A stretch of DNA of 64,000 bases from Isoetes taiwanensis (taxonomy: Eukaryota; Streptophyta; Lycopodiopsida; Isoetales; Isoetaceae). Below are positions 1,762-62,869 of the stretch, in pieces. Positions within the stretch are counted from its first letter, which is position 1, and each line of letters begins with the position of its first letter. The stretch covers positions 3,804,567 through 3,868,566 of the forward strand of contig JAJEKV010000028.1 of the NCBI GenBank assembly GCA_021234155.1, read 5' to 3'. The notes under the pieces were generated by a model. The model was not told the DNA's origin and did no database searches. It was given only the letters and a program-made list of their open reading frames with translations. Made by a program: the position numbers and the translations under genes.

Positions 1762-1828
1762 GTCTCACACGTTACGCCCAGACCAATAATGAACTTTTCA
1801 TTTTCGGTCCTGGCGCGACGTGTGAGAC
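1762..1828. repeat. 67-bp imperfect hairpin, copy 1
   Basis: Arms GTCTCACACGTTACGCC and GGCGCGACGTGTGAGAC pair almost completely. The inner arms (AGACCAATAATGAA against TTCATTTTCGGTCCT) extend the stem, so nearly the whole 67 nt folds back. It lies downstream of the H3-like frame on the minus strand. Confidence 0.85.
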
Positions 1829-1960
1829 ATTGCCTCTAATTGGGTTAAACTTGTCCAATTTGGGTGATGTAAGGGTCTAATTCTGCTAGACTCGTCGAGT
1901 TAGGCAGAATTGACCCTTATTTGGTCGATTTGGAGCAGTTTTGGGCACTTTTGGGGCATG

Positions 1961-2027
1961 GTCTCACACGTTGCGCCCAGACCAATAATGAACTTTTCAT
2001 TTTCGGTCCTAGCGCGACGTGTGAGAC
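1961..2027. repeat. 67-bp imperfect hairpin, copy 2
   Basis: Same hairpin as at 1762, with GTCTCACACGTTGCGCC at the left. It starts 199 bp after the previous copy and about 145 bp from the end of the H3-like frame. Confidence 0.85.
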
Positions 2028-2172: not shown

Positions 2173-3424
2173 TTATGGTCTCTCTCCCTTGATGTAACTA
2201 GCAAGATGCATGTCCTGCTTCATAAGTGTCACTCTCTTCGCATGAACTGTGCAGGCTGTCGAATCTTCAAAATGCTGCACCAGTTTCTGTTCTGTTGCCT
2301 CTTGCAGGGCCAGCAACATCTCGTCCGTCACCTTCATATCCGTGTTGTACTCTTGGATCACCTCTCGAACTAGGCGGGCGAACGGTGCACGGGGAATCAA
2401 AAAGCCGAAGCTTCTACGAAAATGCGATCTCTCCGGGAGGCTTTCCTCTCGCTCTCCTTCCTGCCGGTTCTCTTCTTGCCTGGTGGTCTAGGAGGCTTGG
2501 GATTCTCTGGTGGCGGCTTCAGTATCTGGCTCTTCGTCGGATGTCCACCTTCTATGGTTCTAACCCTGTTCTGCTGGTAATATGTGTTGTACGCCTCCCA
2601 CTTTGCCATGAAGGTGTTGTGCTCCCTTAGTTTCTTCTGATAGACCTTGACGGGGTCTATCACATACGCCTCTCGAGCTGGCCGCGGTGCTTTGTTTCGG
2701 TCCCACGTCGGGTATGGTGGGGTCTTTACTGCTTTCGGCCGCCTGGTCGGGTATTGCTGCTCATCGGTGGGGTTTAGAAGAGCTTCCACCTTCGGTGTTG
2801 GGGATGAAGTCTTCATCTTCAGAGTCGTCGGAGGAGGGCGAGGGCTGGTCAGCTGATCATTCGGTGATGACGACCTTGGGGTTGGGGGTCTTTATTCGTT
2901 TAACCTTCACGAGTTTTCTTTTGCCCACCATCACGAACTTCCCCTTCTTCTTCTTCAGCTCCTCGGCTGCTTTGGCCTCCTCCTCTTCGTCCCTCTTTCT
3001 TTTCTTTTCCGCCTTCTTCTCCCGACGGCGTTCTTTCGCTTCGTGCTTCTTTATCCACGCCGCTAATTCCTCCTCTTCGGCTGGATCAAGAGTCGGCTCT
3101 CTGCTCCTCTTGCTCCTCGGCCCGATCCTGTTCTTCTTTCTTCTTCCTTTCCTCCTCCTCCACTTCTTCAAGAATTTGCATGACGTCCGGTACCTCATTG
3201 CCGAGGACCTCTGTTCCCGCATCGGAGTGTGCATCCTCCTCCACCTCTGTCTCACCCCCTTCTTGGTCGTTGTTGTTGCTGGGGTGCTCCTCGGACTCTG
3301 CTCCCTCGCTGTTTGAAGGTTGACCTCCTTGCTGAAAGAGGCGCTCTCGAAGCATCTCTTGGAGTAGGGCGCTGGGAGTTGTGACACCTGGAGGAACTCT
3401 AGCAGTCTGTTTCGTCCTGGCCAT
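2173..3424 (-). pseudogene. Retroelement-borne long histone H3-like protein, copy 1 (frameshifted)
   Basis: The protein begins MARTKQTAR, the exact start of histone H3, and then VPPGV in place of KSTGG. It ends at 2173 with an H3 fold: residues such as PFARLVREVIQEY, LALQEATE, FED and HAKRVTLMKQDMHLA match the alphaN/alpha1, alpha2, L2 and alpha3 parts of H3, about half identical by eye. Between lie an acidic Glu-rich stretch (about 3110-3300), a Lys/Arg/Glu coiled-coil-like stretch (about 2870-3100), and a Pro-rich part with PPYPTW and EGGHPTK. The whole spans about 417 codons, against 136 for H3. At least three frame changes (near 3110, 2770 and 2430) and a TGA at 2857 break it. Comparison with the copy at 30395-31456 places a one-base loss near 2440. 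H3 packs DNA in nucleosomes; whether this protein does so is inference. Mature position 9 is Val rather than Lys. Confidence 0.85.
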
Positions 3425-3638
3425 GTTTGACTGTTCTTTAATCCGAAGTCGGGCGCCCAAAAAATGGCCTTGGCAAGGGGGAGCGATTTTCTAAGGAAGA
3501 ACGTAGAAATTTGGGGGGGGGTCCTAGGTCTATTTATAGATGGCCAATTTTAGGTCAAATTTCAAACTACCCTTTTGGGTCACTTAAAACACTTATTATC
3601 TTACTACATGGCTAAATTTAAACATTTCTAACCTCATG

Positions 3639-3705
3639 GTCTCACACTTTGCGCCCAGACCAATAATGAAAGTTTCATTTTTGCTCCTGGCGCGACGTGC
3701 GAGAC
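3639..3705. repeat. 67-bp imperfect hairpin, copy 3
   Basis: Same family as the hairpins at 1762 and 1961. It lies in the leader, about 215 bp upstream of the H3-like start codon on the minus strand. Confidence 0.85.
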
Positions 3706-3852
3706 ATGGTGGATTTTGATGCTAAATTTTATACTTTCTGAGCATGTTTTTAGGAATGTAACATACTAATCTAGCTAATGCTTAGCTTAAAATTCGAATT
3801 ACCATGTTACTTTTCTGAAATTCATCACTTTTCAAGGTGTTTTTGGCTCAAT

Positions 3853-3919
3853 GTCTCACATGTTGCGCCCAGCCCAAAAATGAGATTTTCATTATTGGTT
3901 CTGGCGCGACGTGTGAGAC
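3853..3919. repeat. 67-bp imperfect hairpin, copy 4
   Basis: Arms GTCTCACATGTTGCGCC and GGCGCGACGTGTGAGAC. It starts 214 bp from copy 3, so hairpins come in pairs spaced about 200 bp both upstream and downstream of the H3-like frame. Confidence 0.85.
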
Positions 3920-4111: not shown

Positions 4112-4123
4112 GCTCTGATACCA
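4112..4123 (-). other. Primer binding site (initiator Met tRNA type)
   Basis: On the minus strand this reads TGGTATCAGAGC, the common plant retrotransposon primer binding site complementary to the 3' end of initiator tRNA-Met. It sits one base from the LTR end at 4125 and so fixes the direction of the element to its left. Confidence 0.9.
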
Positions 4124-4124
4124 C

Positions 4125-5700
4125 TGTGACGTCCCCTACTCATATCCGGTGCACTCACCATATACAAACATGAGTTCATCCCCCATACCAGCTCCATGCT
4201 GATACATGGCCCTCCACATATCACTGCACCCGTAACGAGTCCCAGTGGGAAGAGTGAAGGGGTCATTTTACCCCGTCTCCCTCAGGGTCTACCTAGCTGC
4301 GGAAGCGTAAGCATACAATGTCAGTACATAACATCATCACATATCCACTTCCACCTCGAAGGGTGGTACATCAACATCTGCATAGACAAAGATCAGCACG
4401 ATACATATGGGTTCCTACCCAAGGCTCAGACTCCAGGGGATGACTGACGGCTTGGGTCTCCAGAGTTCATTGCAGACAGAATCATGACAATGGATTTGGC
4501 TGGCATGAGAACATGGCATAGGGTTGTCCACTCCATCCGCCCCTCCTGTGCACACTTTGCAGAGTAGGCTGAAAAGTGTTGGGACCTGACTGTAGCCCGC
4601 CGGATGCATAGCCAAAGGGGCTATTCACGGGTTGCATCTCCCGATTCGATGGGGCGGTAGAGATCTCCCCAGATCTACATGCGACTCAAGGAGACTAGAG
4701 AGGGCCACTGCCCTTATTCGACTTGAACCCACCGGAGAGTGACGCATCACTCCACGGGTGTCGAGCCCATGCCTTGCCCTGCGCGGTGGCAAGCCATTAG
4801 ACCTAGTCCACAATGATCCACACCGGAGGGATCGTTCAAGAGTCGAACACGAAGCTCTTTATAAGCGGTCGGCCCCTTCACCCACAAACAGGTGTGGCTC
4901 TCGCGTGCACATGCGAATCTACGATTGTGCTAGAGAGGCTAATCTAGGAGCATCAACTACTAAGCTTTAGGGTCTCTACCCCCCTTCCCAATACAAGGAG
5001 TTCACAGAGATACATCATCCATATACATCACAGAAGAACTAAAGAACTAAATCTAATCTACATCATAGAGTTAGGTTCTTTAGTTAGTGTCTGGTATCGG
5101 GGAATCTAAATGGCTGCTATGGGCGATTTAATATGCTAAACCTACTGATACAATGACTGGAAGACGGTTTAGGCTATTAAATCGACTAAATACCTGATCC
5201 TTGGCTCGCTCCTGCTGCCTTGAATTCGACCATCCTGCTGAACTGCTTGAAGATGGAGCCAACAAGGAAAACTAATGGTGCAATTCGCTCAGACAGAGTC
5301 TGGGAGGCGGTTTTGACTCCTGGAGCAAGCAAAACAGAGCTCTAAAACCCTGTGGACGAAAATGGCAAGTTAGGGTTTCTCCTACCTAAATAGACAAGGG
5401 GATAGGGCGAGGGTTAGGGTTTCCAATTATCCCTTTAAGCATGTGGGATAATTGGGTATGGCCCACTTGCCTTTAATGGCTATAGGTGGCATAAAGGTAT
5501 CCACATGGAAAAATGTGCACCTTGATAAATGTGCACATTGGTAAATGTGCACATTAATAAATGCACATACCTTGCAAGTTGCCCCCTAGGGCTACCCGCT
5601 TGGCTACACGTCGGCGTACACGTCAGTCGAGGTGGCGTGTATGCGTGACGAGGCAGTACAGTATACGTCCTGGGACCGTATACTGTGCTGGAACGTCACA
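4125..5700 (-). repeat. Complete LTR of the Element A family (1576 bp)
   Basis: Bounded by TGTGACGTCC and GGAACGTCACA, an inverted terminal repeat with TG...CA ends. It serves as the 3' LTR of the gag-pol relic at its right and, by the adjoining primer binding site, as the 5' LTR of the block at its left. This LTR-internal-LTR-internal arrangement suggests unequal recombination. Related LTR sequence recurs at 9904-22751 (interrupted) and, more diverged, at 32179-32776. Confidence 0.88.
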
Positions 5701-13451: not shown

Positions 13452-14240
13452 TGTGACGTCCCCTACTCATATACGGTGCACTCACCGTATATAAACATGA
13501 GTTCATCCCCCATACCAGCTCCATGCTGATACAAGGTCCTCCACGTATCACTGCAACCTTGATGAGTTCCAGTGGGAAGAATGAAGGGGTTATTTTACCC
13601 TGTCTCCCTCAGGGCCTACCTAGCTACGGAAGCGTAAACATACATGTCAGTATACATACATCAATATCACATGACCATCATGAAGGATGGCTCACCACAT
13701 ATCTGCATGGACAAAGATCAGCACATCACATATGGAGAATCTACCCAAGGCTCAGACTCGAGAGGGATGACTGACGGCTTGGGCCTCCAGAAGTCATTGC
13801 AGACAGAATTCATGACGATGGATTTGGCTGGCAATAGAACATGGCTTGGGGTAGTCCACTCCATCCGCCCCTCCTGTGCACATTTTGCAGAGTAGGTTGA
13901 AAAGTGTTGGGACTTGACTGTAACCCGCCGGATGCATAGCCAAAGGGGCTATTCCTGGGTTTCATCTCCCCAGTTCCGATGGGGCAGGTAAGGATTGCTC
14001 CCACCAGAGGTTGGCATGCTGACTCAAGGTGACTAGAGGGCCACCGCCCGTACTCGACTGAACTTCATGGAAGGTGTCCATCACCCCAAGAGTGTCGAAC
14101 CCATGCAAAGCCCTCACGCAGTGGCAGAGCATTAGGTCTAGTCCACAATAGTCCCCGATAGGCTTTACTACCAGAGGGACATGATCATGAGTCAGGACAT
14201 GAACCTCCTTGTAAGCCAGTCTGGCCCCTTCACCCACAAC
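13452..14240 (-). repeat. Left part of the solo LTR, array copy B
   Basis: LTR segment starting TGTGACGTCC and ending where the LINE begins. At CAG/CTG sites this copy agrees with the full LTR at 4125-5700, whereas the equivalents at 9904-10689 and 17040-17820 do not. It is probably the most accurate of the three. Confidence 0.85.
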
Positions 14241-17039: not shown

Positions 17040-17820
17040 TGTGGCGTCCCCTACTCATATCGATTGCACTCACAGGTATATAAACATGAGTTCATCCCCA
17101 TACCAGCTCCATCTTGCGATACAAGGTCCTCCACGTATCAACGCAACCTTGATGAGTTCGATTGGGAAGAATGAAGGGGTCATTTTACCTGTCTCCCTCG
17201 GGGCCTACCTAGCTCTGAGGCGTAAACATACATGTCGGTATACATACATCAATATCACATGACCATCATGAAGGATGGCTCACCACATATCTGCATGGAC
17301 AAAGATCAGCACATCACATATGGAGAATCTACCCAAGGCTCGGACTTCGAGAGGGATGGTGGCGGCTTGGGCCTCGAAGTCATTGCGGCGTAATTCATGG
17401 CGATGGATTTGGCGGCAATAGAACATGGCTTGGGGTAGTCCACTCCATCGCCCCTCCATTGCACATTTTGCGAGTAGGTTGAAAAGTGTTGGGACTTGGC
17501 TGTAACCATGGGATGCATAGCCAAAGGGGCTATTCACGGGTTTCATCTCCCGGTTCGATGGGGGCGGTGGGATTGCTCCCACCCGGAGGTTGGCATGCTG
17601 ACTCAAGGTGACTAGAGGGCCACCGCCCGTACTCGGCCGAACTTCATGGAAGGTGTCCATCACCCAAGAGTGTCGAACCCATGCAAAGCCCTCACGCGAT
17701 GTAGCGAGCGTGGGTCTAGTCCACAATAGTCCCAGATAGGCTTTACTACCGGAGGGACATGATCATGAGTCGGGGACATGAACCTCCTTGTAAAGCCGTC
17801 TGGCCCCTTCACCCACAACG

Positions 17821-21491: not shown

Positions 21492-22751
21492 GAGAGAATT
21501 TAATAGTGCATTAAAGAGGGTTATCATACTACTAGGCTTTTAAGGCCTCTACCCCCCTTCCCAATACAATGAGTCCACAGATATCATCATCACATACATA
21601 TCATAGAAGAACTAAAGAATGAGATTTAATCTAAATCACAGAGTTAGGTTCTTTAGTTATGGCTTGGTATCTAAAGATCTAGATGGCTGCTATGGGCAAT
21701 TCAATAGGCTAAACCTACTTATTCTCTATCTGGGAGGCGGATTAGACTATTGAATTGACAAAATACCTGATCCTTGGCTTGCTCCTCCTGCTCTGAACTC
21801 GACCATGCTGCAGAACTACTTGAAGATGAAGCTAGAAAGGGAAACTGATGAGTTAGGCTACTCAGACAGACTTTGGGAGGCGAGATTGGCTCTTGGAACA
21901 AGCAAAACAGAGCTCTAGAAGGCTGTGGACGAAAATGGAAAGTTAGGGTTTCCTATACTTATATAGACTAAGGGTTAGGGCTAGGGTTTCTCATTATCCC
22001 TTTGAGCATGTGGGATAAATGGTGTGGCCCACTTGCCTTTATTAACTAAGTGGCATAAAGTGTACACATGGGTAAGTGTGTACACATGGATAAATGTGCA
22101 CATGAATAAATGTGCACATAAATAAATGTACACACCTTGCAAGTTGCCCCCTAGGGTGCTACTTGCTTGGCTACACGTCGGCGTACACGTCAATCGGGAT
22201 GGCGTGTGTCTGGCGTGGCAATGCGATAATGATATCGGGGGGCGTGATTATCTTGCCGGGGATTCACCTCTATTATAGGTATATATGCCATGTGCGTTCC
22301 TTAGGTTGCCAAAAAACCCATTGTATACGACAGTTCCATATGAAAAACCCTTTGTATACGACTACATTATTTGTAAAAGAATGCAGCCCATATCATATAA
22401 TTACTTGCCCAAAACACTTTTACTTGACAACCCCTTCCATACATATACGATATCTCTATTATTTTATATATACAAATATATATTATCATAGTCATATCAC
22501 ATTATCACAGAATCCCCAACAGTAGAAGCTCACCAAAAATGACGGACCCTTACAGTATGAATACGAATCAAACACTGGCGCCACCACACTCCCTCTGATA
22601 TCCGTACGACATTCAAACTATAAAAACCTTATATTTTTCTTATGTATACGGTACCAGAGAGGCAATAAAAAAACCCATTTGGTGCACTCACATGTTTCAT
22701 ACCCCATAATCTAGGTGAACCCCCCGGGGTATACTGTGCTGGAATGTCACA
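21492..22751 (-). repeat. Right part of the solo LTR
   Basis: Matches the right half of the LTR at 4125-5700 (for example CTCTACCCCCCTTCCCAATA and GGCTACACGTCGGCGTACAC). It ends GGAATGTCACA before the GTTGT duplication. The stretch 22250-22730, with TATACGACAGTTCC-like text, has no counterpart in the 4125-5700 LTR, so that LTR has a deletion here or this one an insertion. Confidence 0.8.
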
Positions 22752-22756
22752 GTTGT

Positions 22757-23291
22757 GGAACAATCTTCCTCTTTTCATTATTTGTACCCCGTCAACTATG
22801 CAGAACAAAATTTTATGTGGTGGCCAGAATCCGAGATGAAAAGAGACATCCATAAACTGATTTTCAGAAATTATATCGATGCCGCTATTCCATGATCGTT
22901 TAGCGTCTCTAGATAAATGAGACGTGAACAGTAGCTTTAAAATCCCATTACGATCTCGCACTCGTTGCTTCCGTTGTAAATAGGAATGATGTACAGGTCC
23001 GATTTTCCATAAAGGCACTATGAAGCACATATTTCTATGTGTTGCTTTAGATTTCTTTCTAGATTTATCAATTGGCAAAACCATATTCAAATGCTCAACT
23101 GGGTGTTCCTCATATTTTTTGAGCCTAGATCCATTTACTAAAGTTGAATAAGGTTTCCATCTAAATCCATTAGCTGGACAGAGCCATTCGGGTGTACTTT
23201 TTGAATGATGAATGGACCCAGCCATCTAATTTTAAGTTTTCCTGGGTGTTTGAAATATCTGGAATTATATAATAAAACCTTTTGTTCTTCA
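22757..23291 (-). pseudogene. Element B integrase C-terminus and start of the post-integrase ORF
   Basis: The region after the integrase core has a strand in another frame resembling the integrase C-terminal GPF/Y-like part near 23225. It continues with VNGSRLKKYEEHPVEHLN and a frame MCFIVPLWKIGPVHHSYLQR. That frame is cut by the solo LTR at 22756 and resumes at 9898. Beyond position in the element, its function is not recognised. Confidence 0.55.
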
Positions 23292-24527
23292 TTAAATGTC
23301 ATTCCTACGATCCTCCCATGCTTTGCGCCTATGTTTTTCCACCTGTTGAGACCATACAGACCTTTGACGTTCTTCGTCTAATGCTTCCAACTTGACCATT
23401 CGATTTTCTAGTGAAGGTATGTCTCCCAATCGGTGATGAATGGCCCCTCTTACTGAAGGAAGTACAAATTCAAAAGGCATCACTGCCTCTATGCCATAGG
23501 CAAGCTGAAATGGTGTATGACCTGTTATAGATTTATAGCTAGTTCGATAAGCCCACAAAACTGCTGGGAGCTTCAGTTCCCAATCCTTCCTCGTTGACTC
23601 ACAAATTTTTTTAAGAATAGTTATGAGCACTTTATTTGTGGACTCTGCCTGTCCATTAGCCCTTGGATAATATGGTGTAGACTTTCGATGGGAAATTAAA
23701 AAATCTCTGGTCAGATATTCAATGGTTTCGTTGATAAAGTGTCCACCGCGATCACTGACCAGCTACTTTGGACAACCAAAACATGTTATAACTTGTTGAT
23801 ACAAAACCTTAGCTACACTTTGTGCTTCATTATCTTTAAGAGCTCTTGCTTCAGCCCATTTTGTGTGATAATCAGTTAACACAAGTATATATCGTGCTCT
23901 AGTACGAGCTGCAGGTGGGAAAATTGGTCCTAGGAAGTCCATTCCCCACTTTTCGAATGGACCTAGAGGAAGAATAGGATTTAGTGGCATATAATCTCTT
24001 GGACCTGGTTTTCCAACCCTTTGGCATATATCACAAGTCTTTGTAAATGCATAGACATCTTTAAATAATGTTGGCCACCAAAAACCTGATTGGAGAATCT
24101 TCCTCGCAGTTAGATCAACAAAGAAATGTCCTCCACTTACTCCTTGATGAGCTTCAAGAATGATATCATGTATCTCGTGGGGCATTACACATCTACGTAG
24201 CACAAAATCTTTTCCTTTTTTATATAGTTGGCCAGAAATTAGTGTATACGGCTGAACTCTTCGTAGAAAAACACGTTTTCTAACAATATCCATTTGTTGA
24301 GGAAATTGCCCACTTGTCAGATACTCAGCAATAGCCGCATACCATGGAGGTATTGCATTGATCTGAAACAACTTTATACCTGGCAACTCGTCGTGAATTC
24401 CATTTGGTTGTTCACCATTTGGTAACTTAGAGAGGTGGTCTGGAATAGTGTGAGCAGGTCCAAGTTTTAATACTACCTTGAAATTAAATTCCGGGAGAAT
24501 TAGCCAACGAGTAATTCTCCCTGTCAC
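23292..24527 (-). pseudogene. Element B integrase
   Basis: The zinc-binding H2C2 region reads HEIHDIILEAHQGVSGGH...CDICQRVGKPG. The DDE core follows with KWGMDFLGPI, YILVLTDYHTKWAEA and, beyond a TAG near 23763, SDRGGHF, then TSYKSITGHTPFQLAYGIEA (23292-23630). It joins retroelement cDNA to host DNA. An in-frame stop separates the two core segments. The start of this frame still carries the end of RNase H (RITRWLILPEFNFKV). Confidence 0.85.
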
Positions 24528-25155
24528 ACATGGTTTTTTTTACCAAATAGAGTAAAGCTTGGTGATCCACGAAAAATGTAAAGTAATTTCCCAGAAGATA
24601 GTAATGGAATTTTTGAACTGCAAACACCATTGCAAGACCTTCACGTTCTGTTGTATTATAATTTCTTTCAGCTTTATTAAGTTGTTTGCTCGCATAATGA
24701 ATTGGACGATCTATTCGTGAATCTATTTGTTGAGCTAAGACTGCACCTACTGTTGTTTTAGATGCATCAACATGCACATGAAACTCACGATCCCAATTCG
24801 GAGTTATAAGGATAGGGGCTGATGTCATTAATGCTTTAATCTTTTCAAAAGCATCATTGCACTTTGTTGTCCATTCAAATTTTATTTTTGGACTCACCAA
24901 AACATTTGAACATGTTGCTATTTCAGCCAAATTTGGACAGAATTTCCTATAATAATTTGCTTTTCCTAGGAAACGCTTTACTTCAGTCACGTTTCTAGGA
25001 GAAGGCATGTCTCGAACAACTTGTACCTTGCTTGGATCAGTAAGTAATCCTTCCTTAGACAGAATGTGTCCCAGAAGCATCCCATGTTTGACCAAAAAGG
25101 TGCACTTTTCAGGATTAAGAGAAACTCCATACTTTCGGCATCTCTCAAAACACAA
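24484..25155 (-). pseudogene. Element B RT thumb and RNase H
   Basis: RT connection motifs (CTFLVKHGMLLGHILSKEGL, VKRFLGKANYYRKFCP) are followed by RNase H (REFHVHVDASKTTVGAVLAQ, EREGLAMVFAVQKFHYYLLG, FFVDHQALLYL). A stop and frame change separate it from the RT palm at 25156 and from the integrase at 24527. It degrades the RNA template during reverse transcription. Confidence 0.85.
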
Positions 25156-25778
25156 TTATAGTTTTGAGATGTGATCTTGGAGGCTACTAAACACTGTAAA
25201 ATCGTCTAAGAAGACTTCAATAAAATTCCCAATATACTGTTTGAACACTATAAGCATTATCCTTTGGAATAATGAAGGAGCGTTACTCAAACCAAATGGC
25301 ATCACCTTATAGGCATAAGTGCCAAACTGCGTTATAAAGGTCATTTTGAATTGGTCATCAGGATGTATTTTAATCTGATTGTATCCAGAAAAACCATCCA
25401 TGACTAGATAACATTCATGATCTGCTACTTGTTCTAACACTTGATCTGTAAACGGGAGTGGAAAATGATCTTTCTCTGTGGCGTCATTAAGCTTTTGAAA
25501 GTCCACACATACACGTAATTTTCCATTTTTCTTCTTTACACAGACTATGGGGGAAACCCAATCACTCGTTTCTACCTCGAATATAAAATCAGCATGCAGC
25601 AATTTTTTGGATCTCTTTTTTTAACACTTGAAGCAAAATTAGGATTCATTCTATAAGCTCTTTGGTAAACCGGTTTGGCAGTTGGTATTAGAGGTATTCT
25701 CATAAGGCAAACATCGGAAGAAATTCCTCTCAAATCTGTATAACTCCAAGTGAATATATCCTTATATCGTTGCTTCAC
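25156..25778 (-). pseudogene. Element B reverse transcriptase palm and fingers
   Basis: Fingers: IPLIPTAKPVYQRAYRMNP in one frame (25572-25778). Then SDWVSPIVCVKKKNGKLRVC, VDFQKLNDATEKDHFPLPF, MPFGLSNAPSLFQR and the catalytic FLDDFTVF (25156-25602). Typical Ty3/gypsy order. A frame change near 25600 and the stop near 25156 make it non-functional as read. Confidence 0.88.
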
Positions 25779-25845
25779 GAATGTATGATGGCAAATCTTT
25801 GCCCAAACATACTGTGGTTCACTTTCAGATCCTAGATTGATAGCG

Positions 25846-26652
25846 TCAACTTCTGGCTACCCAAATAGGGATCAGATTATTACCGTGCAATGTATGAGCT
25901 GGTTCATGATGTAAAACTGCAGTGCCTTGTTGTATTTCCGTAAAACCAGGAGGGTAATCCATCACTTGTTCCACCATGAAACAAGTTGCACAATCCATTT
26001 GATATTCCTCAAACACATCAACATTATAAAAATCTTCTTCTTCATAAATACCCTCTTCATCATCACTATCAGAAAAAACCACTTCTTCCTTCAAAATAGT
26101 AGTTGATCCTGACGCTAAATTAAATTTGGCTACTTTGCCCTGTTTTGATAAGGTAAGCGTGTTGGTTGACCAGTCATGTATTGCTTTAGAAGCTTGCAAC
26201 CAAGGTCTTCCTAGAAGGATCTGGTAATCTGTAGTTCTTGGTTGTGTTTCCAAAACAACAAAATCTTGTTCAAATTGCAAGTCCCCTATTGAAAATGAAA
26301 TATCCTTCAATATCCCTAATAGTTCAACTTTCCTATGATCTGCCATCTTTACATTAAAAGGAGCTTTATGCAAATCATTAAACTTTAACTTTTTGCGTAA
26401 TGAATTCGTCATAATATTTACTCCTGCACCACCATCCACAGGAGCTTTTGTAATTTCTATTCCCTTAATTGAAACTGTAACTACAGGGTTATATTTATCT
26501 GTTGGTTCAATCTTGTACGTGGCAACCGAATCTTCAGTCTGATAGAACGCTCTGGATATGCCTAAATCTGATACATACTTTCCTAGTAAAACAAGAGGAA
26601 CAGGAATCATCATTTCTTGAATTTCACTATTCAAATCTTTGATGTCTTCCAT
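25846..26652 (-). CDS. Element B aspartic protease and linker
   Basis: Open for 268 codons. The retropepsin-type active site is VDGGAGVNIMT (about residues 72-82; DGG in place of the usual DTG/DSG). It is followed by LLGRPWLQ, the second conserved protease motif, near residue 150. The C-terminal 100 residues are acidic (SDSDDEEGIYEEEDFYN) and lead toward the RT. Its task would be to mature the polyprotein. There is no gag in front, so either gag was deleted or the start shown here was internal to a longer polyprotein. Confidence 0.8.
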   Translation of the reverse strand: MEDIKDLNSEIQEMMIPVPLVLLGKYVSDLGISRAFYQTEDSVATYKIEPTDKYNPVVTVSIKGIEITKAPVDGGAGVNIMTNSLRKKLKFNDLHKAPFNVKMADHRKVELLGILKDISFSIGDLQFEQDFVVLETQPRTTDYQILLGRPWLQASKAIHDWSTNTLTLSKQGKVAKFNLASGSTTILKEEVVFSDSDDEEGIYEEEDFYNVDVFEEYQMDCATCFMVEQVMDYPPGFTEIQQGTAVLHHEPAHTLHGNNLIPIWVARS

Positions 26653-26932: not shown

Positions 26933-27768
26933 TGTTAACAAACTCTCACTTTGCTAACACTAAGCAAACAAGAAGCAAACTAGTAAATACTCACCCAAGT
27001 ACTTGCAAAAATGCTTGCCCATTCCAACTCAGATCGTGATCCATAATCCACTATAACCTCAGAAGATGGAGCTAGTAAACCAACAGTGTTAAAAGAGAGC
27101 CTCCAGAAAGGTGTTTCGTCAGCAAGATTCTAAGTAAGCTTTACCTAAAGGCTCAAGCGCCGTCATTGCAAAAAACTTGGAGCACATAAGCTGAGAGCAA
27201 ACCGTTGGGAGCCAAATGCGCTTCCATGGAAACTATTTCAACGACACATAATTTCACTTTCTTAGTGTGGCTACTTTTAGGTTCTTTGCATATTCAATAT
27301 TTAAGATTTGCTTGTTATTATGATTTGTTAAGACACGAAGCCAAATGAAACATTCCGCACATGAGGAGACAAATATATATTTAACACGAACTTTCTATTC
27401 CAATCTCTCCTTAACAGTTACAACGTCATTGGGCCTTTTATAATAATCAAGTCCCATAACTGTTTTTGGCACATGGCATCAATGACTTATTTCCTATTAA
27501 CATTAACTCCTACTTACGTTTAAGTACTACAACTTCATAAAATAACATTATGCTAACATATCAAAGAAAATAATAACAACTCAACAACAATGTTTTCTCC
27601 TCAAACGTCCTGAAACCTGCGTGTCATTTCATTTGCACCTGCACCTAATGTATAGTGTGTCTTCGTGACCGTTTGAAATTCCTATCATCTTCTTCCTGCT
27701 CACTGCCTTCATCCATGTTCGCAAGTGCATCTAGAACCATATCATCTACGTCTAGATTTTCCTTATCC
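26933..27768 (-). repeat. Element B 5' LTR
   Basis: Begins TGTTAACAAAC and ends CCTTATCC on the plus strand, next to the TGCAT duplication. It matches 7405-8200 closely apart from small indels near 27355 and 27440-27480. The low divergence shows Element B is far younger than its host, Element A. Confidence 0.88.
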
Positions 27769-28440
27769 TGCATCATATGGCACTTGTGTTCTCTTGGCAC
27801 GTAATGACGCTTAAATGCCTTGGAGAACTTCTTGAATCTGCAGCTATCTCTGCTTAACCCATGGGCTTTGGAATAGCCTTTCCACTTAATTCTGACTCTC
27901 CTTGAGGTTGGCTGCCCTTGTCCTTATTTTTGATACTATAAGCATTCCCGTACTCTCTCATTTCATCCAACCAAGCCCCGACTTCCATTCCTGACCTGTT
28001 GTCTCCTGAGAACTGTTCCAGCTTCTTGGCTTTCCATACATTGCTCAGTGCAGAGTCGACTTTATTCTGGTAGTCGACTTCAATTCTTCCCCTATCACGG
28101 TTGGAACCCTCCCGGCAGTCTTGCCCATCATTGTCCTGCTCCTCAAATTCGGAGTCGGAGTCCGAACTAGAGTTGGAGGAATCTGTGCTAGGAGATTCTT
28201 TTTCTTGTCTGTTCTGTCAGCAGGTGTTTCGGGTAGTTGGACATTCTGGTCCTGCAATTGCTGCCCTCCCTGCCAACAAGGCTCTCATCTCGTGGATATC
28301 CGATCTCGTTTGCAATATCTCCTCTTCCGGGTTGGTGCCTCGAACACTTAGAACATGTTTCTTGGTTGAAACTATCTTGCGGGTGTCTGCTCTTCCTAAG
28401 GTTGTCGATCTTGTTCTACATTCCTGGGTGCTCTAGCTGC
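27769..28440 (-). pseudogene. Element A gag, N-terminal part
   Basis: In minus-strand frames that shift, the text shows a low-complexity acidic start (SSNSSSDSDSEFEEQDND), then KKLEQFSGDNRSGMEVGAWL and FKKFSKAFKRHYVPREHK, the usual retrotransposon gag pattern (F-G...W...F...Y). It continues across the Element B insertion into 7404 with TGCAT shared. Several frame breaks are present (near 28045 and 27890). Confidence 0.7.
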
Positions 28441-28578: not shown

Positions 28579-30224
28579 CTATTCTTGCAATCTTCGGTAT
28601 GCCGGGTTGTCTTCCAAGAACTTCTTCACTTGGGCCGTGCCAACTGTTCGCTCCACGTTTCTGAGAATGTTGATGGGCGTACCACCGTGAAGTGCCGCGA
28701 CCAGGTCTTCAACCCTTCTATCCGACGTGTAGACCGCAGTGACGGCCAACCTGCCCTGTCGTCTATATGGGACTGCGAAGTCGAAGATGCTCAAAGCTAT
28801 TGACCTCTTGACCAGGATGACATGGTCGATGTTCAGAGGCATCCGAGCATGCCTAATAAATCCAGAGAGGGCAATGAGCATGAAGACTCCTTCTTCTCTC
28901 TGTCGGCTAAACTTGCAGTGTATGACCGCTATCCTTCCGTCGGTGAGGAGTGGAAGGTAAAACCTGGGGCTTTATCGTGTTCTCCCTCTATTGCCTCTTT
29001 TCTAGTTCTGATCCCAGCCCTGTGCCTTCCGGAGTACTCGTCCACCGATACCGCTATCAAGTCCTTGTAGTCTGCAAACATGGACCTGGAAGAGGTCAAG
29101 TTGATGCTGCCTCTTTCTAACCCGGCCGGCACTACTGATGAGGTACTGGGCAGGAGCGCGCTTGTTGTCTTTCCTCTAATGCCCATCCGCTCCTGGATGG
29201 CTATAAATTCCTCCTCTGAGAGCAGCTCTTGTTGCGTCATCATCTGTCGGATGCCGTGTAAGCTTCAATGTTGGATGATGACTGGCCAATGTAAGTGTGG
29301 GTCTCCCTGATGCTGATCGGGAAGTCCTGAGTCTCTCGGTCGATGAAGTCGTCGAGGTTGGCTGTTGATGTAGAAGGTGCAGGAGCTCGTCCACCCTATA
29401 GCCTCTGTCTCTGCACTCTTGGAGGTTCTTTATGTCGTGCAGCGTCAGGTACTCCTCTCCTTCGATGATGACCGGGGTTAGATTGGTGATGCCTAACCCA
29501 AATAGAGGACCCGTCCTCATTACCCTCAAACCTTCGTCGAAGCCTTGAAGGTCTTCTTTTGCTTGTTGCCTTTCTTGTATGGGGTCGACGTCTATGATGT
29601 CTTCAACGTCGTAGCCATGTCCTTCCTTTGCCTCTTCCTTCTGCTCTGACTCTTCATACTCCAGGAGCATTTGCTCTTCTGCTTCTGCTTCTATGGCCAG
29701 GGGTTCAATATCTAGAGGCTGAATGGAGGGTTCACTTATCCGGGTTTGGGCTCTATGGGACAAAAAGATGGCTACAACATCAGTATAAGAAAAATGTCTC
29801 TTCCTACTTATGGATATGGTCATGTAATCTGGCATGCGAGTAGCTCTATTTTCTAAATACTTGTCTATGTTTGGAATATCATTCAGAGCTGCACAGAGGG
29901 CTGTTCTAGGTGCAAAATAACCTATGCATGGGGGGAGTTCTACTCGGGAAGGTCCTATCTTGGCATGGAACTTAGTAATGATCTCTTGTGTGTGGCATTT
30001 ATGGTGGCATCCACATCGATCTCCTTTTGAAACACAACGAAGACCGAGTTGATGTCAGCCTCAGCCACATGAGCAGTGGCATTGTACCATCGCCTGAATG
30101 ATGAAGTGGCCATGATGTTGATGCAGATGGGGTTATCAAACAGATGTATAAGTGCCTCTGGGAGCTGGAAAATTGCCTTGGAGTGAGGAGTGATAGAGTA
30201 GGATGCAAATGAGGGTGGGGTCAT
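28579..30224 (-). pseudogene. Element A ORF of unknown function, between H3-like frame and gag
   Basis: Four open pieces in order: 29955-30224 (FRRWYNATAHVAEADINSVF), 29176-29835 (220 codons, acidic middle with YEESEQKEEAKEG and DVEDIIDVDPIQERQQAKED, then EGEEYLTLHDIKNLQECR), 28929-29243, and 28579-28881 (PLNIDHVILVKRSIALSIFD ... KKFLEDNPAYRRLQ). They are separated by stops and frame changes but read like one former protein of about 500 residues. No known domain is recognised. The copy at 1.6-4.1 kb lacks it. It could be an extra structural ORF, captured host sequence or part of a diverged gag. Confidence 0.5.
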
Positions 30225-30394: not shown

Positions 30395-31456
30395 TTAGCA
30401 ATCTTCCTTCTTTATGAACCTAGCTAACTTCATATCTCTGGGCATACAGGTGACTCTTTTCGCATGGAGAGCACATGCTAGGGAGTCTTCAACTGGACCA
30501 ACTTCTGCTATGCTGCCTCCTGCAACGCAAGCAACATATCATCTGTTACTCGCTTGCTCTTGTCGAATTCCTGCAAGATTTCTCGGGTTAATCTCGCGAA
30601 TGCAGCCCTTGGAACCAGCAGTCCATAGCTCCACTAAAAATGTCAAATCTCCCGAGCAGCCTTTGCAAAATAGGAGTCCGACTTTCTCTTCATTGGTTTC
30701 TTGGGTGGTACGGGTCTCTCTGGGGGCAGCTTCAATGTGTTATTCTTCGTTGGCCTTCCTCCCTCCACGTACGTTACCTTATTTGCTTTATAGTACCTTG
30801 AGTATTCTTCATACATCTTCATGTACTCCTGGTACTGCTTCAATTTCTTCTTGTACTCGTGCTCATGCTGGAGTACATAAGATTCCCGTACTGGCTTGCC
30901 CTTCTTGAGGTCAAATGTTGGCTTTGGCCACTTCGGGTATGGAGGTGGTGCTGTAGTTTCTTCCTCTTCATTGTTGAGGTTTGAAGGTCCCGAGCCTTCT
31001 GCTGGGTGGGAAACTCTCGATGCCTCCTCGTCCGACTCTATCTCTGATGAACTTTGGCAGTTCTGGGTCCTTCCCTTTGGCCTCCTTCCGCCTCTTGCGC
31101 TCTTCCTTCTGTCTTTTGCGCTCCTCCTTCTCTGTAATTCTCTTTCTCTTTGCTGCTTTCTTCTTCTTGATCATTTTCTTTTGCCGACGTGCTAGCTCTT
31201 CTAGTATTGGCTGGTCCTCCTCCTCGTCGCCATTTCCCTGATCCTCTGGGTTTTCTTGATCATCAGGGTCCTGAGTTGTTCTTGCTGGTCTTGATGCTGC
31301 TCGTCATCCCTCCTCAACATCTTGGTTGGGGTTAGGGTTTTCTTCTTGTCTAGCTCGCTCCCAAGCCTCCCTGGCCTTCTGTTCTGCTGCAAGAACTTGG
31401 ACACTGGTAGAACCGTCTGGCATAACCACTCGAGCAGTTTGTTTAGTGCGGGCCAT
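30395..31456 (-). pseudogene. Retroelement-borne long histone H3-like protein, copy 2 (stops and frameshifts)
   Basis: Begins MARTKQTARVVMPDG, so again the exact H3 tail with Val where Lys9 should be. It continues with a charged linker, a basic stretch (KKKKAAKRKRITEKEERKRQ, 30968-31174, same frame as the start after one TGA), and PPYPKW plus EGGRPTKNN, which match PPYPTW and EGGHPTKSQ of copy 1. At the C-terminus comes the H3 fold: LLVPRAAFARLTREILQEF, LALQEAA and, after a frame change, HAKRVTCMPRDMKLARF, ending near 30395. It spans about 354 codons. Breaks: TGA near 31307, a frame change near 30970, stops near 30640 and in alpha2, and a frame change just after. The loop HAKRVT is intact in both copies. 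It probably could be incorporated as an H3 variant if an intact copy exists, but this copy as read is dead. Confidence 0.85.
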
Positions 31457-31671: not shown

Positions 31672-31744
31672 CTCTACCACTAACACAGTGCGCGAGAAGC
31701 ACTTTCAAAACTTTTGAAAAGGCCCTGGGTGCACTCTATGAGGG
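31672..31744. repeat. Leader hairpin, copy 1 of Element A 5' region
   Basis: Imperfect arms ACACAGTGCGCG and GGGTGCACTCTATGAGG around a second small stem (CTTTCAAAACTTTTGAAAA). It is in the same position relative to the H3-like start as the hairpin at 3639, though the sequence has diverged. Confidence 0.6.
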
Positions 31745-31892
31745 ATCACTCCTTTTTGGCTCTAACTTTAGTTTTCTAAACAATTTCGTAGTATTAGAAC
31801 ATACTTTCCTAACTTAAATCCAAATTTTAAGCTACCCCAAGCTATGAGATTACTCTAGTTATGCATCTATCTAGGTCAAAATTGGTCAAACA

Positions 31893-31955
31893 CTCACATA
31901 GTGCGCGAGACCCTTGTTCAAAATTTTTGAAACTGCCTTGGGCGCACTCTGTGAG
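31893..31955. repeat. Leader hairpin, copy 2 of Element A 5' region
   Basis: Arms CTCACATAGTGCGC and GCGCACTCTGTGAG pair at 13 of 14 positions. It starts about 210 bp from the previous hairpin, the same spacing as the pair at 3639/3853. Confidence 0.75.
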
Positions 31956-32165
31956 GGGTTATTCCCTACTTGCCAGAATTTTTCAGGGTTTCTACTATTT
32001 CTTCCTATCTTAACATTATCCTACCTTACTGTTCTAAGGATTGGAAGAATTTTTTTTCCCAATTTTCGAGGTTCATGCTTGGGTGGTTATTCCCAAGGCT
32101 GAAGGTCTACTGTTAGTCCTAACAGGGAAATGGTCAGTGCTCGATCTTGGTCTACCAAGATCATG

Positions 32166-32177
32166 GCTCTGATACCA
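32166..32177 (-). other. Primer binding site of Element A
   Basis: Minus strand TGGTATCAGAGC, identical to the site at 4112-4123 and one base from the LTR end at 32179. Confidence 0.9.
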
Positions 32178-32178
32178 C

Positions 32179-32776
32179 TGTGACGTCCCCTACTTCTTCT
32201 ACGATGCTCCCATTGTATTGGAAGGCAGAGTTCATCCCCCTGGTAGCCACGCTAGAGGCCATCTACCTAGCACCAATCCTTTAACAATGGATCGACGACG
32301 AAGAATGGATGGGTCATTTGTCCCGTCTTCCCTCTGGACTGACCTAGCTGTGGAAGCGTGAATAAACGTAAGCACATGACATCAAATGCAAACAAAGTCA
32401 CCTCGAAGTGTGACTGTACCATAACATACATGTATAAACACATCAACAAGATCATCATCACATGGGAGATCCTACCCAAGGCTCAAACTCCAGGGTATGG
32501 ACTGACGGCTTGGGTCTCCAGAAGTCATTGCAGACAGAATTCATAAGGGTAGATTGGGCTGGCATAGGAACAAGGCTATTGGGTAGACTGCTCCATCCGC
32601 CCCTCCCAGTGTACACTTTGTAGAGTAGGTTGAAGAGTCTAGGGACTGGACCATAGCCCGCCAGGTACGTAGCCAAAGGGCCTACTATTGGGTTTCATCT
32701 CCCCAGCCCCGATGAGGCAGGAGGAGGATCACCCCCTCCAGAGGCATGCATGCCCATCACAGGCAGCTAGAGGGCA
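32179..32776 (-). repeat. Element A 5' LTR, partial
   Basis: Starts TGTGACGTCCCCTACT and follows the 4125-5700 LTR in order (GAGTTCATCCCC, CCTAGCTG.GGAAGCGT, ACCCAAGGCTCA, CATTGCAGACAGAATTC, TAGCCCGCC). It stops after about 600 of 1576 bp, where a different repeat begins. Divergence from the 3' LTR is large by eye, so Element A is old or its LTRs come from different copies. Confidence 0.8.
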
Positions 32777-34739: not shown

Positions 34740-37703
34740 TCAAGGTACTCTAGGATCATCAGAGAGAAACAAGTTAGAATCCACAACATTAAGGTTTGAA
34801 GCAAATAAACTATAGTGTCCCCTAAACTGCCCAAAGACCTCCCATTTCCTGTCAAAGTTAGCACCAAATTTCTTTTTATGAGCAGTTGCAATAGTCTCAA
34901 AGTCAAACTGAAAATGCATCTTAATCCAGAAGATAGAAGGATTCTTATGACCATATAACACCCGATTTCTTGCTTTCCAAATATTCCACAGAGCAATGTA
35001 AATGATTGAATTTGTAAACATATCATTATGTTGAATAAGGGAGAGAAGATCTCCATTATTCACAATACCAAATCTAGCAGCAATCCAGGTCCAAAAATCA
35101 TCCAACTTGCAGCAAAAGAAAATATGAGAAATATCCTCAAGATTATTACAATTTAAGGGGCAATTTGCTGAGATGTTAGGATTTCTTTTGGAAACAAAGA
35201 CCAGATTATTCAGACTGCCATTAGCTAGGAGCCAGATAAAATAGGAAATTTTTGGTGGACAATAAGAATTCCAGATATTATGAAAAAGACTCTTAAGCTG
35301 ATCATAAGAAATAGACCATTTGAGCATAGCTTTGCAATTATCCATGTTAGAGGACATAGCATTATATACATCCTTCACTTTGTAGACTCCTTTTCCCTTT
35401 ATGGTCCAATCAGTTCTATCAGGATTGGGGGATAAGTTTGTGAGAAAAGGTTTGATAAGAGCATAGATTTTTTTATCAGATGATGTACCTCTAATCATAC
35501 CCTTCAATCTAGTCCAAGAGATAACTCTCCCATCAATAATCAAGTCTTTAAGGTAAAGGAATCCAGCCTCAGACCACTTCTTATAAATTCTAGGATGCTT
35601 AATGGCAAGAACAGGAGAATTCTGCTCAACTAAAATTGGATTCCAGAAAATTGTAGTATCTGCATGAAGCTTGTCCCTAGCAATAAAATGGAAGTTAGAA
35701 GAGATAGCATTCCAAGCCTTGATAAGATTACACATAAGAGGGGAAATATTAGTGGCTGGTCTCAGCTGATTGAAAGCAGAATGAGGGAGCAAGTGCTGAA
35801 TAGAGGGATGGCCATAAGGATGACTCAGAGAGATCCAATATCTGATGAATGTATAGGCAGGAGAAGGATTTCCATGAATGGATTTCCATATAAACTTCCC
35901 AGCAAGAGCTTGTGCTTGTCTGAAAAGATTTTTGCATCCTAAACCACCAGAAGATTTCGGCTTGCAGATAGAATTCCAGTTGACCAAGTGACTACCTTTC
36001 CAAATAAAGTTCCTAAGAATTTTCTCAAGCTCCAAATAGACACATTTTGGAGCCACCAAGGCTGTTGAGAAGTATACATGAGAGCTAGCAAGAACAGCAT
36101 TGGCAATAATAGTTCTGCCTGCAAGAGAAAGATAGTTCCTGTAATTGTTCAGTTTCTTTTTTATTCTCAAGAGGATAGGGTCCCAAAGGCCTTTGATAGT
36201 ATGATCCATAGCAAGAGGCATACCTAAAAGTTTGGTTGCCTGATTGGAGGGGAGAACATTTATCCCAGCTAAAGTTGGAGTATTGATATCTCCAATAATC
36301 ATACTTTTGTTCAAGTTCAAATGAATACCAGATGCAGCAGAGAATTGACCTAAAATCTTGAGGAAAAGATTGATGTTCTGAATATCAGCATCAAGAAAGG
36401 AGAAAGTGTCATCAGCATATTGGAGAATGGTAATACTATCACTGGAATTTGGAAGTTTTAAACCTTTTAATTGAGTAGAATTCTGATAATGCATGATGAC
36501 CTTAGTAAGAAGCTCAGCAGCCACTAAGAATAAGTAAGGAGCAAGAGGACATCCTTGCCTCACTCCACAAGAAAGAGGAAAGAAACCAGTGGGGACACCA
36601 TTGATAAGAACAGCTGAGTTTGATCTAGCATTCAGACCATAAATAAGACTAATAATCTTAGAAGGGAAACCAATTTTGGACATAGCAAAATCTAAGAAAT
36701 CCCATCTAACAGAATCAAACGCTCTCTTGAAATCTAATTTAAGGAGAATGCAATTTTGATTAGAGATTTTATTCCAATGCAGACCCTCCATAGCAGCCAC
36801 ATAATTATCCAAAATAAATCTATTTGGAAGAAAAACAGATTGATTTGGGATAATATTTCTTTGGATAAAGCTTTTGATTCTGAGAGCAATGATCTTGGCA
36901 CAAAGTTTATATGTAGTGTTTGTGAGAGAGATTGGTCTCCAGTCTTGAAACTTTGAAGGATGATCAACCTTAGGAACCAAAGTGATCAGGCCACTGGAAA
37001 TAGAAGGATGAAGATGATTAGAATTCCAGAAGGCAGTAACTAGAGAGATCAAGTCATTTCTGAGAATATCCCAGAATTTGATATAAAATTCAGCTGGGAA
37101 ACCATCAGGACCAGGAGATTTACCATTACTAAAGGACTTGAGAGTGTCAAAAATCTCATTATGAGAAGGAATGGCAGCCAGAGACTCGTCCATGGTTTTT
37201 AGAGGATCAGGTAAAATATTATTGACTATGGAGTAAAAGTCATTTGCATCCGAGATCTCATTGGGAGGAATTGGTTTGCCTTTAAAAAGGTCCATGTATC
37301 TGCTCTTGAAGAAATTTGCAATGTCAGAGTGAGAATTATATTTAATATCCTGATCATCAATAGTCTCAGTAATAGAGTTTCTAAGAACCCTACTTTTAGC
37401 TACCCTGAAAAAGAATCCTGAGGAGCCAGAGTCCATATCATTAGTATATTTGATCTTGCATCTAATAGCAGAGCCTTTAGCTTCAATCTCCTCAATATTT
37501 TTAATTTTTCTCTCAAGAATTTCTTCCCCTACTTGAAGGTTAGAGCTGGAGGGATCATTTTGAAGTAAGGATCTAATTTCCCTCATATACATGAGAAGCT
37601 GGTTTTTTTCTTTGCTGCACTGATCCTTAATAAGCTTTGACCAGTTCTTAATCCATCTTTTGACTTCCTTGATTTTAGAATAGAAAAGCTTCATAGGAGG
37701 CAT
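34740..37703 (-). CDS. LINE ORF2, reverse transcriptase and C-terminal zinc domain
   Basis: 987 codons open. RT motifs: SNGKSPGPDGFPAEFYIKFW (about 190-215), WRPISLTNTTYKLCAKIIA, LKLDFKRAFDSVRWDFLD, CGVRQGCPLAPYLF and the catalytic ILQYADDTFSF. The C-terminal part (about 780-880) has the zf-RVT pattern SYFIWLLANGSLNNLVF and CPLNCNNLEDISHIFFC. It copies LINE RNA at the nick made by the endonuclease. The endonuclease half is in another frame: one frame change near 37700-37780 separates them, either a recent mutation or a base-calling error. Frames on the opposite strand here are shadows. Confidence 0.92.
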   Translation of the reverse strand: MPPMKLFYSKIKEVKRWIKNWSKLIKDQCSKEKNQLLMYMREIRSLLQNDPSSSNLQVGEEILERKIKNIEEIEAKGSAIRCKIKYTNDMDSGSSGFFFRVAKSRVLRNSITETIDDQDIKYNSHSDIANFFKSRYMDLFKGKPIPPNEISDANDFYSIVNNILPDPLKTMDESLAAIPSHNEIFDTLKSFSNGKSPGPDGFPAEFYIKFWDILRNDLISLVTAFWNSNHLHPSISSGLITLVPKVDHPSKFQDWRPISLTNTTYKLCAKIIALRIKSFIQRNIIPNQSVFLPNRFILDNYVAAMEGLHWNKISNQNCILLKLDFKRAFDSVRWDFLDFAMSKIGFPSKIISLIYGLNARSNSAVLINGVPTGFFPLSCGVRQGCPLAPYLFLVAAELLTKVIMHYQNSTQLKGLKLPNSSDSITILQYADDTFSFLDADIQNINLFLKILGQFSAASGIHLNLNKSMIIGDINTPTLAGINVLPSNQATKLLGMPLAMDHTIKGLWDPILLRIKKKLNNYRNYLSLAGRTIIANAVLASSHVYFSTALVAPKCVYLELEKILRNFIWKGSHLVNWNSICKPKSSGGLGCKNLFRQAQALAGKFIWKSIHGNPSPAYTFIRYWISLSHPYGHPSIQHLLPHSAFNQLRPATNISPLMCNLIKAWNAISSNFHFIARDKLHADTTIFWNPILVEQNSPVLAIKHPRIYKKWSEAGFLYLKDLIIDGRVISWTRLKGMIRGTSSDKKIYALIKPFLTNLSPNPDRTDWTIKGKGVYKVKDVYNAMSSNMDNCKAMLKWSISYDQLKSLFHNIWNSYCPPKISYFIWLLANGSLNNLVFVSKRNPNISANCPLNCNNLEDISHIFFCCKLDDFWTWIAARFGIVNNGDLLSLIQHNDMFTNSIIYIALWNIWKARNRVLYGHKNPSIFWIKMHFQFDFETIATAHKKKFGANFDRKWEVFGQFRGHYSLFASNLNVVDSNLFLSDDPRVP

Positions 37704-38545
37704 AGAGTTGCCAGCAAACCTATTAGTAAGCTCATCATAGAAAGTTTTGAATTGGGAGCAGAAATTTTCATTTCGAGAAGAGAAGAATTAAATTTATAAG
37801 GAGTGCTCCCTTCTCTTTGAATCCTGATGACATGGGAGGTATGAAGGAATTGAGGCTGATGATCAGAAATAGAGGTTCCTTCATCACTTGTTACATAACT
37901 ATTGTCCCAAAAGGCTGTAGATGGATTGGAAACATAAAATCTGTCAAGAGTACAGTAAACCCTTGCTCTATCTTTTTGCTTATTAGACCAAGTGTAGGTG
38001 GCCGTAGAAGAGAGAATATGAATCAAATTGTTATCAGAGATAAGCAAATCCCAGTTCTCTTTTTCAGTTGAGGACATATTTATTTTATTTCCCAGCTTAA
38101 AATCCCAAGAGGGGGTATTATTGAAATCTCCAGCAACAATCCAGTTGTCTATAGTTTGAGATTCCAACCAGCTATTAATTTCACTCCATATAGGTTCCCT
38201 ATCTTTTGGAGAGGTAGGAGCATATATATTGATGATTCCAAAGTTGGAATTCGAAACAGAGCAAATCATAGCCTGCCAAGCTTTAGAAGGGCTGTTATAA
38301 AAGGAGGAATGCTTGATGTCTTTTTTCCAAACAATGGCTAAACCACCACTAGCTCCAGAGGAGTTAATCCAAATTGAAGATGAAGAAGGGTATATCCAAT
38401 CTCCCAAATTGCTACATTCAAAAGAGGGAAGTTTAAGCTCTTGTAGAAGGATTATATCAGCATTATACATCCTGATTTGAGCAATAGCCTTTCTTCTTTT
38501 TAAAGGACCTTTTATGCCTCTAAGGTTCCAAGAAAGAATCTTCAT
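37691..38545 (-). CDS. LINE ORF2, N-terminal endonuclease
   Basis: An apurinic-type endonuclease/exonuclease/phosphatase domain starting MKILSWNLRGIKGPLKRRKA, with LLQELKL, INIYAPT, VAGDFNNTPSW, YTWSNKQKDRARVYCTLDRF and SISDHQP, that is the catalytic E, N, D and H positions. The Met at 38545 starts just after the ORF1 stop at 38574, as is usual for coupled LINE ORFs. The last residues before 37691 are out of the true frame. Nicks target DNA to start retrotransposition. Confidence 0.9.
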   Translation of the reverse strand: MKILSWNLRGIKGPLKRRKAIAQIRMYNADIILLQELKLPSFECSNLGDWIYPSSSSIWINSSGASGGLAIVWKKDIKHSSFYNSPSKAWQAMICSVSNSNFGIINIYAPTSPKDREPIWSEINSWLESQTIDNWIVAGDFNNTPSWDFKLGNKINMSSTEKENWDLLISDNNLIHILSSTATYTWSNKQKDRARVYCTLDRFYVSNPSTAFWDNSYVTSDEGTSISDHQPQFLHTSHVIRIQREGSTPYKFNSSLLEMKISAPNSKLSMMSLLIGLLATLCLL

Positions 38546-38573
38546 TACAAGGAGGAAGATAGAAAAAGACAAT

Positions 38574-62745: not shown

Positions 62746-62869
<124 letters not shown>

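Follow-up and report, generated by a model that had tools for sequence, protein, structure and literature searches.

The two histone-like frames of the window (the whole 64-kb stretch of DNA analysed here, positions 3804567-3868566 of its contig) are dead copies, A and B, of a gene that comes first in the elements of a large group of Ty3-type LTR retrotransposons. The order of features in these elements is 5' LTR - tRNA-Met-type PBS - H3 ORF - ORF2 - gag - PR - RT - RH - INT with chromodomain - 3' LTR, the chromodomain having been checked in two elements, one each of families I and II (see below). Since the H3 ORF has an LTR, TSD and integrase context and its fold is under purifying selection, we conclude that chromodomain-bearing Ty3-type elements encode their own histone H3.

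The first-pass annotation had both window frames starting with MARTKQTAR and ending in an H3-like fold, and this part of the description stands. A search of the whole window with a 26-base degenerate pattern of the H3 tail, with at most three mismatches allowed, yields two minus-strand sites, 3424-3399 and 31456-31431, the mean in 100 shuffled windows being 0.00. The 72-aa piece of the C-terminal frame of copy A (2487-2176, minus strand) matches Pfam Histone with 6e-18 (65.7 bits, cut-off 26.4) and H3 chains from PDB with about 2e-19; H3 is its best match in both, and no non-histone family fits the C-terminus of this copy better. A 33-aa piece of copy B scores 7e-4 with Pfam Histone (20.3 bits, under the family cut-off of 26.4). 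The landmarks FARL.RE, LALQEA and HAKRVT are present in both copies, in B split over two frames. What did not hold is the reading of each copy as one open frame: both lie on the minus strand, with frameshifts, and are divided into several frames with internal stops; the plus strand also has several stops across both intervals.

Read through these interruptions, A and B are 40% identical overall and 63% identical in the fold (49 of 78 residues). In four stretches covering 157 codons they differ at 53, 42 and 94 sites in codon positions 1, 2 and 3, respectively, and over 147 of these codons (the tail left out) their amino acid identity is 0.55, while simulations keeping the same base changes average 0.31 and never exceed 0.40 (n=5000). 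Hence the ancestors of A and B were under selection at the protein level.

The exact 12-mer TGGTATCAGAGC, which we take to be a primer site of the tRNA-Met type (tRNA-iMet type), occurs at two sites in the 64-kb window, each upstream of an H3 copy, and an LTR end ...GACGTCACA followed by TGGTATCAGAGC is located about 700 bp 5' of each H3 start (Table 1). Halves of LTR A recur elsewhere in the window. Near 21495 a LINE interrupts the 3' LTR of element B; the LTR segment 22224-21523 shows 81% identity to LTR A, and the first about 0.5 kb of this LTR does not align. A and B share 73% identity in their LTR halves, while 94 of 157 third codon positions differ between their H3 ORFs, and an exchange of LTRs between the two lineages is possible, judging from these sequences. 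Both leaders have paired hairpins; double changes are observed at 10 of 27 hairpin pairs across six related hairpins, several other pairs being broken in B, where the second hairpin does not differ significantly from shuffles (z -1.57). Pfam scans of the pieces of B ORF2 and of intact ORF2s, as well as of the gag remnant of B (its own 120-aa piece), gave no match.

Table 1. Features of the two H3-element copies and of their surroundings in the window
Feature	Position	Strand	Remarks
5' LTR of copy A (TGTGACGT...ACGTCACA, about 1.58 kb)	4125..5700	-	terminal motifs at 5700 and 4132
PBS TGGTATCAGAGC of copy A	4112..4123	-	exact 12-mer
Leader of A, two ~70-nt hairpins	3639..3919	-	z -5.3 and -6.9 vs shuffles
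TATAAAT box of copy A	3532..3538	-	114 bp upstream of H3 ATG
H3 ORF copy A (family I)	2173..3424	-	interrupted by stops and frameshifts; fold within open frame 2487-2176
Two further hairpins of leader kind, downstream of H3 copy A	1762..2027	-	
3' half of element B 5' LTR	32179..32735	-	73% identity to LTR A; ends ACGTCACA
PBS of element B	32166..32177	-	exact 12-mer TGGTATCAGAGC
Leader of B, two diverged hairpins at matching places	31672..31962	-	z -4.0 and -1.57
H3 ORF copy B (family I-like)	30395..31456	-	broken
ORF2 of H3 element B, broken	28968..30113	-	tblastn 1e-78 with L032 ORF2
Gag remnant of element B	27768..28330	-	tblastn 7e-41 with L031 gag
PR-RT-RH-INT of a different Ty3-type element inside element B	23141..26652	-	Pfam; RT 37% identical
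Element B 3' LTR, 5' part	21495..22752	-	start motif TGTGACATTCCAGCAC at 22752 by eye

The pol region at 26652-23141 was considered as a part of the H3 element and rejected: its RT is only 37% identical to that of an H3 element, and its PR-RT-INT is of another type, presumably Athila-like, which places it in a different element. At 26933-27767 and 7405-8199, beside RT remnants, lie two copies of a 0.8-kb segment that agree to about 90%, the gag of B ending nearby. Positions 8540-19237 hold three tandem copies (about 93% alike) of a 3.57-kb unit in which half an LTR is combined with an ORF and the 5' portion of a LINE. Another LINE is located at 34740-40064 (minus strand), with an open frame of 987 aa that matches RVT_1 and zf-RVT, one of 293 aa for an endonuclease and one of 496 aa; a 401-aa ORF with DUF7869 (6e-22) lies at 53336-54541 (minus strand), and a long CTAT microsatellite at 62746-62870.

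The genome searched was the window's own assembly (1,658,258,908 bases, 1110 contigs). With the C-terminal frame of copy A as the query, 150 places, copy A itself included, were scored of 8,685 candidates, and all of them are 77-100% identical over the matched stretch; 18 of the 150 have open frames of at least 400 aa without a stop inside the match (hand count). The listed copies are spread over many different contigs. The search with Pfam Histone gave 8705 first-look candidates, of which 150 were scored; by our own count, 15 of these resemble the canonical host H3 (model positions 2-122), and the remaining 135 start at model positions 4-25, in frames of 108-494 aa, and may include some host genes. 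The totals of candidates in both searches are not copy counts. Fifteen matches, mostly in long frames, which biases the set towards intact copies, were chosen, and 10 kb was fetched around each; for five of these stretches the downstream 10 kb was fetched as well.

The chosen copies fall into at least four H3-bearing families. Intact copies of family I (L029-L034) have one ORF of 416-467 aa with a MARTKQTAR-type tail, a charged linker and a complete H3 fold, the fold helix reading ALKEIRHFQRS or a close variant; L033 has HAKRVA where other copies of the family have HAKRVT, and in L035 there is only a 335-aa ORF that begins at an inner Met. The first-pass annotation had suggested looking for intact copies in the same genome, where the frames might have proved to be unrelated fragments; such copies were found, and in them the tail, the linker and the fold share a single ORF. 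The linker, previously put at 210-280 residues, is longer, since 319-370 aa precede the last 97 residues in the five family I ORFs measured. Families II (L036, L037, L039, L041, L043; ORFs of 425-459 aa), III (L038, L042; 450-451 aa) and IV (L040; 411 aa) have a different, conserved N-terminal domain (IPYPIFHFNERFL...) joined to a nearly canonical H3 fold, identical to that of host H3 in 61-66 of 75 positions and scoring 142-150 bits with Pfam Histone in one ORF of each family. No Pfam match was obtained for this N-terminal domain in the three ORFs scanned, and hhalign of the linkers of family I, families II-IV and protein P0017 (see below) aligned the fold region only. MPRFKLT and MANTKSA resemble MARTKQTA on visual inspection only, and the likeness was set aside.

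The claim that the H3 is borne by a family of LTR retroelements is supported by two TSD-bounded elements with paired LTRs, in which the H3 ORF lies between the PBS and ORF2/gag. In the family I element (adjacent stretches L031/L048) the LTR pair is 96.4% identical over 1531 bp and flanked on both sides by the TSD ATTAA; it encloses the PBS, a 451-aa H3 ORF, Retrotrans_gag (1.3e-17), RNase H, the integrase zinc domain and the chromodomain PF00385 (1.4e-10), RT being seen as an ORF only, with a purine tract ahead of the 3' LTR. In the family II element (adjacent stretches L036/L045) the LTRs are 91.8% identical over 1607 columns, the TSD is CCATT, and RT, RNase H, integrase and chromodomain PF00385 (2.2e-8) are present, though its gag was not identified. 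Both contain the H3 ORF and ORF2, and paired LTRs with TG..CA ends and a 5-bp TSD are observed in both of the two elements with both ends in hand. A clean LTR pair is missing in three of the five copies fetched on both sides: L029/L044 and L038/L046 have no LTR pair, and L032/L047 shows only inverted or partial matches. For family IV, a 1.5-kb probe revealed no integrase ORF.

The same context recurs in the chosen set. An exact PBS is found in 11 of the 15 stretches, 613-1002 bp 5' of the H3 start (measured to the inner Met in L035), and at none of eight host H3 loci with 1.5-kb flanks. By tblastn, ORF2 is detected in 14 of the 15 (not in L034), three self-matching query loci included, and gag in 10 of the 15, two self-matching query loci included; a 10-kb stretch may end before gag. 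Intact examples of ORF2 (L041:2872-4128, L042:2821-4218, L032:2599-3774 (-)) encode 391-465 aa after the H3 ORF.

The N-terminus of family I is exactly or nearly exactly ARTKQTAR. Among the 25 distinct family I loci in hand (L023 and L029 are the same place, as are L027 and L034), 16 tails are readable by pattern, one of them from copy A of the window; the residue in position 9 is Val in 10, Lys in five and Ile in one. Host H3 has two ARKS motifs (K9 and K27), while ARKS is absent from 14 of the 15 element ORFs, that is, from all seven of family I and from seven of eight in families II-IV; the single ARKS is in the internal tail of the family IV ORF (L040). Since five family I tails keep K9 and L040 has one ARKS, the loss of silencing sites is not universal, and a reading in which K9 is missing throughout was rejected, as intact copies with K9 exist. 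Family II retains the GGK and KPHR pieces. As the tail is internal in families II-IV, the chemistry of a free H3 N-terminus is inapplicable to them. Each of the six family I loci inspected, L029-L034, carries TATAAAT upstream of the H3 start (-109 to -117), as does copy A (-114), and copy B carries TATATA at -110; within 180 bp of the H3 start, none of eight loci of families II-IV has the TATAAAT motif. The conserved TATA box suggests that the family I H3 gene may have its own promoter.

The H3 fold is under purifying selection. Within families, its dN/dS is below 0.15 in 19 of 22 finite pairs (range 0.00-0.38), the three higher values (0.18, 0.28, 0.38) coming from close pairs with few changes, and the four pairs saturated in dS all involve L035. 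For the whole ORF, dN/dS is 0.09-0.29 where finite, being infinite in two pairs. Among 28 H3 positions that we take to be contacts, families II-IV differ only at 64, 87, 89, 105 and 133, position 64 being Arg in family II and position 133 Asp in two loci. Family I keeps R69, R72, R83, C110, H113, K115, R116, T118, D123, L126, I130 and E133, and alters positions 63, 64, 84, 87, 89, 109, 122, 129 and 131 (L032 also 94), some of which presumably touch DNA or H3'.

A tree of 28 rows groups families II-IV (94/87) and joins them to canonical H3 (88/84), with support under the tool's threshold in each case, while family I and P0017 are on long branches. We infer that the gene was captured from an H3 gene; a single capture for all families is likely, though not proven, since family I sits on a long branch. 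Compared with canonical and replacement H3, the element proteins share the tail start (family I), the histone fold and the contact residues, but they have about 310-370 residues before the fold helices (intact ORFs measured), have lost the K27 ARKS context and are TE-borne. With chromoviruses the elements share the LTR, the Met-type PBS, gag, the RT-RH-INT order and the PF00385 chromodomain, and differ in two ORFs added before gag, of which H3 is the first.

Three protein searches (8000 candidates scored, 26 matches; 168 scored, six matches; 7999 scored, the best 120 of 4149 matches) gave no named plant protein with the architecture of the H3 element among the matches listed; most of those viewed among the best 120 of 4149 contain at least two H3 copies. 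Proteins P0017, P0035 and P0021 (335-394 aa) resemble the element proteins in having the H3 fold at the C-terminus after a long linker, and P0017 and P0035 also in the MARTKQTARKS start and the long charged linker of family I, but the alignment with H3 elements is confined to the fold. P0017 is probably from another species, as its best-scoring match in the genome has 44% identity over residues 166-384 and the top identity, 52%, is limited to the fold (105 scored out of 12,745 candidates). P0006, P0009 and P0013 are related proteins of 419-459 aa that have a repetitive linker, end in the H3 fold and may represent another mobile family. PADLOC on one protein and Rfam at the gathering threshold gave no match.

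No described retrotransposon encoding an H3 had been known to the first-pass annotation, and text searches of the literature, with most subscription journals outside their scope, found none. The closest published case found is the Phalaenopsis Gypsy elements with an AlkB/2-ODD ORF (PMC9289625), where, as here, a host-derived domain forms a separate extra ORF, though the orchid domain acts on RNA. The screen described there, of 121 angiosperm genomes, revealed 15 unusual domains, with no histone among those named in its section 12. The word 'histone' is absent from the main text of the Isoetes taiwanensis genome paper (PMC8566536).

We hold it moderately probable that the conserved H3 encoded by these Ty3-type elements pairs with host H4 into element-specified chromatin lacking the usual silencing sites. 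The element H3 would fold with host H4 via the conserved H3 interfaces and be incorporated, on element DNA, into nucleosomes or tetramers. More speculatively, chromatin with element H3 might resist heterochromatin formation and/or offer the chromodomain integrase of the same element a place to land; the resistance would be expected because the K9/K27 ARKS contexts are missing in 14 of the 15 element ORFs. The stronger form of this idea, in which chromodomain retrotransposons make their own nucleosomes and an H3 mostly without K9/K27 sites replaces host H3 to block heterochromatin or to self-target the integrase, is tentative, and we would sooner doubt than expect it.

An origin of the pattern from host H3-variant genes that merely lie near LTRs or from repeated passive capture of host H3 as junk is the least credible of the explanations considered. 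The folds of families II-IV are indeed close to host H3 (61-66 of 75 positions), and plant LTR elements are known to acquire domains (PMC9289625), but the H3 ORF lies inside TSD-bounded elements with the PBS, ORF2 and gag recurring around it, is under selection within families, and differs from the eight host H3 loci, none of which has a PBS nearby. It is also very improbable that the elements' H3 acts as a CENH3 (centromeric H3) in centromere targeting. This would explain why LIPRAPFARLVRE and LLALQEA of family I resemble the plant CENH3-like proteins P0004 and P0008, copy A being identical to P0004 in 41 of 81 positions, but the alignment shows neither a loop-1 insertion nor an RWT motif, families II-IV group with canonical H3 (at 88/84, under the tool's threshold), and the listed copies are on many different contigs.

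Two functional explanations place the protein elsewhere than in element chromatin. The element H3 may be an integration or nuclear-import adaptor, whose fold docks on H4 or chaperones (ASF1, CAF-1, HIRA) while the linker or the N-domain brings the pre-integration complex to newly assembled chromatin. The chromodomain integrase in both elements checked, the long charged linker, and the conservation of the fold between family I and families II-IV, whose N-terminal parts do not align, are consistent with such a role; still, no motif linking the H3 protein to gag or integrase was found, and the H3 is a separate ORF, in family I with its own TATA box, and we regard an adaptor as rather unlikely. 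A decoy, that is, a free H3-like protein that stays outside chromatin and either ties up the host's H3 readers, writers or chaperones or compacts element cDNA within the particle, appears unlikely. The exact or nearly exact ARTKQTAR of family I and K9 kept in five of 16 tails suit it, but families II-IV lack that N-terminus and yet conserve the whole fold, which a tail decoy does not need.

If element-specified chromatin built with the element H3 is indeed formed, these retrotransposons would be genomic parasites writing chromatin of their own. As the silencing of TEs acts largely via H3 marks, a conserved element H3 with altered sites would move the conflict inside the nucleosome. The families would also provide a natural set of diverged H3 variants for asking which residues silencing needs, and a concrete route to asking why chromoviruses have a chromodomain. 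For annotation they are a warning, as many 'histone H3' matches in such a genome are genes of elements.
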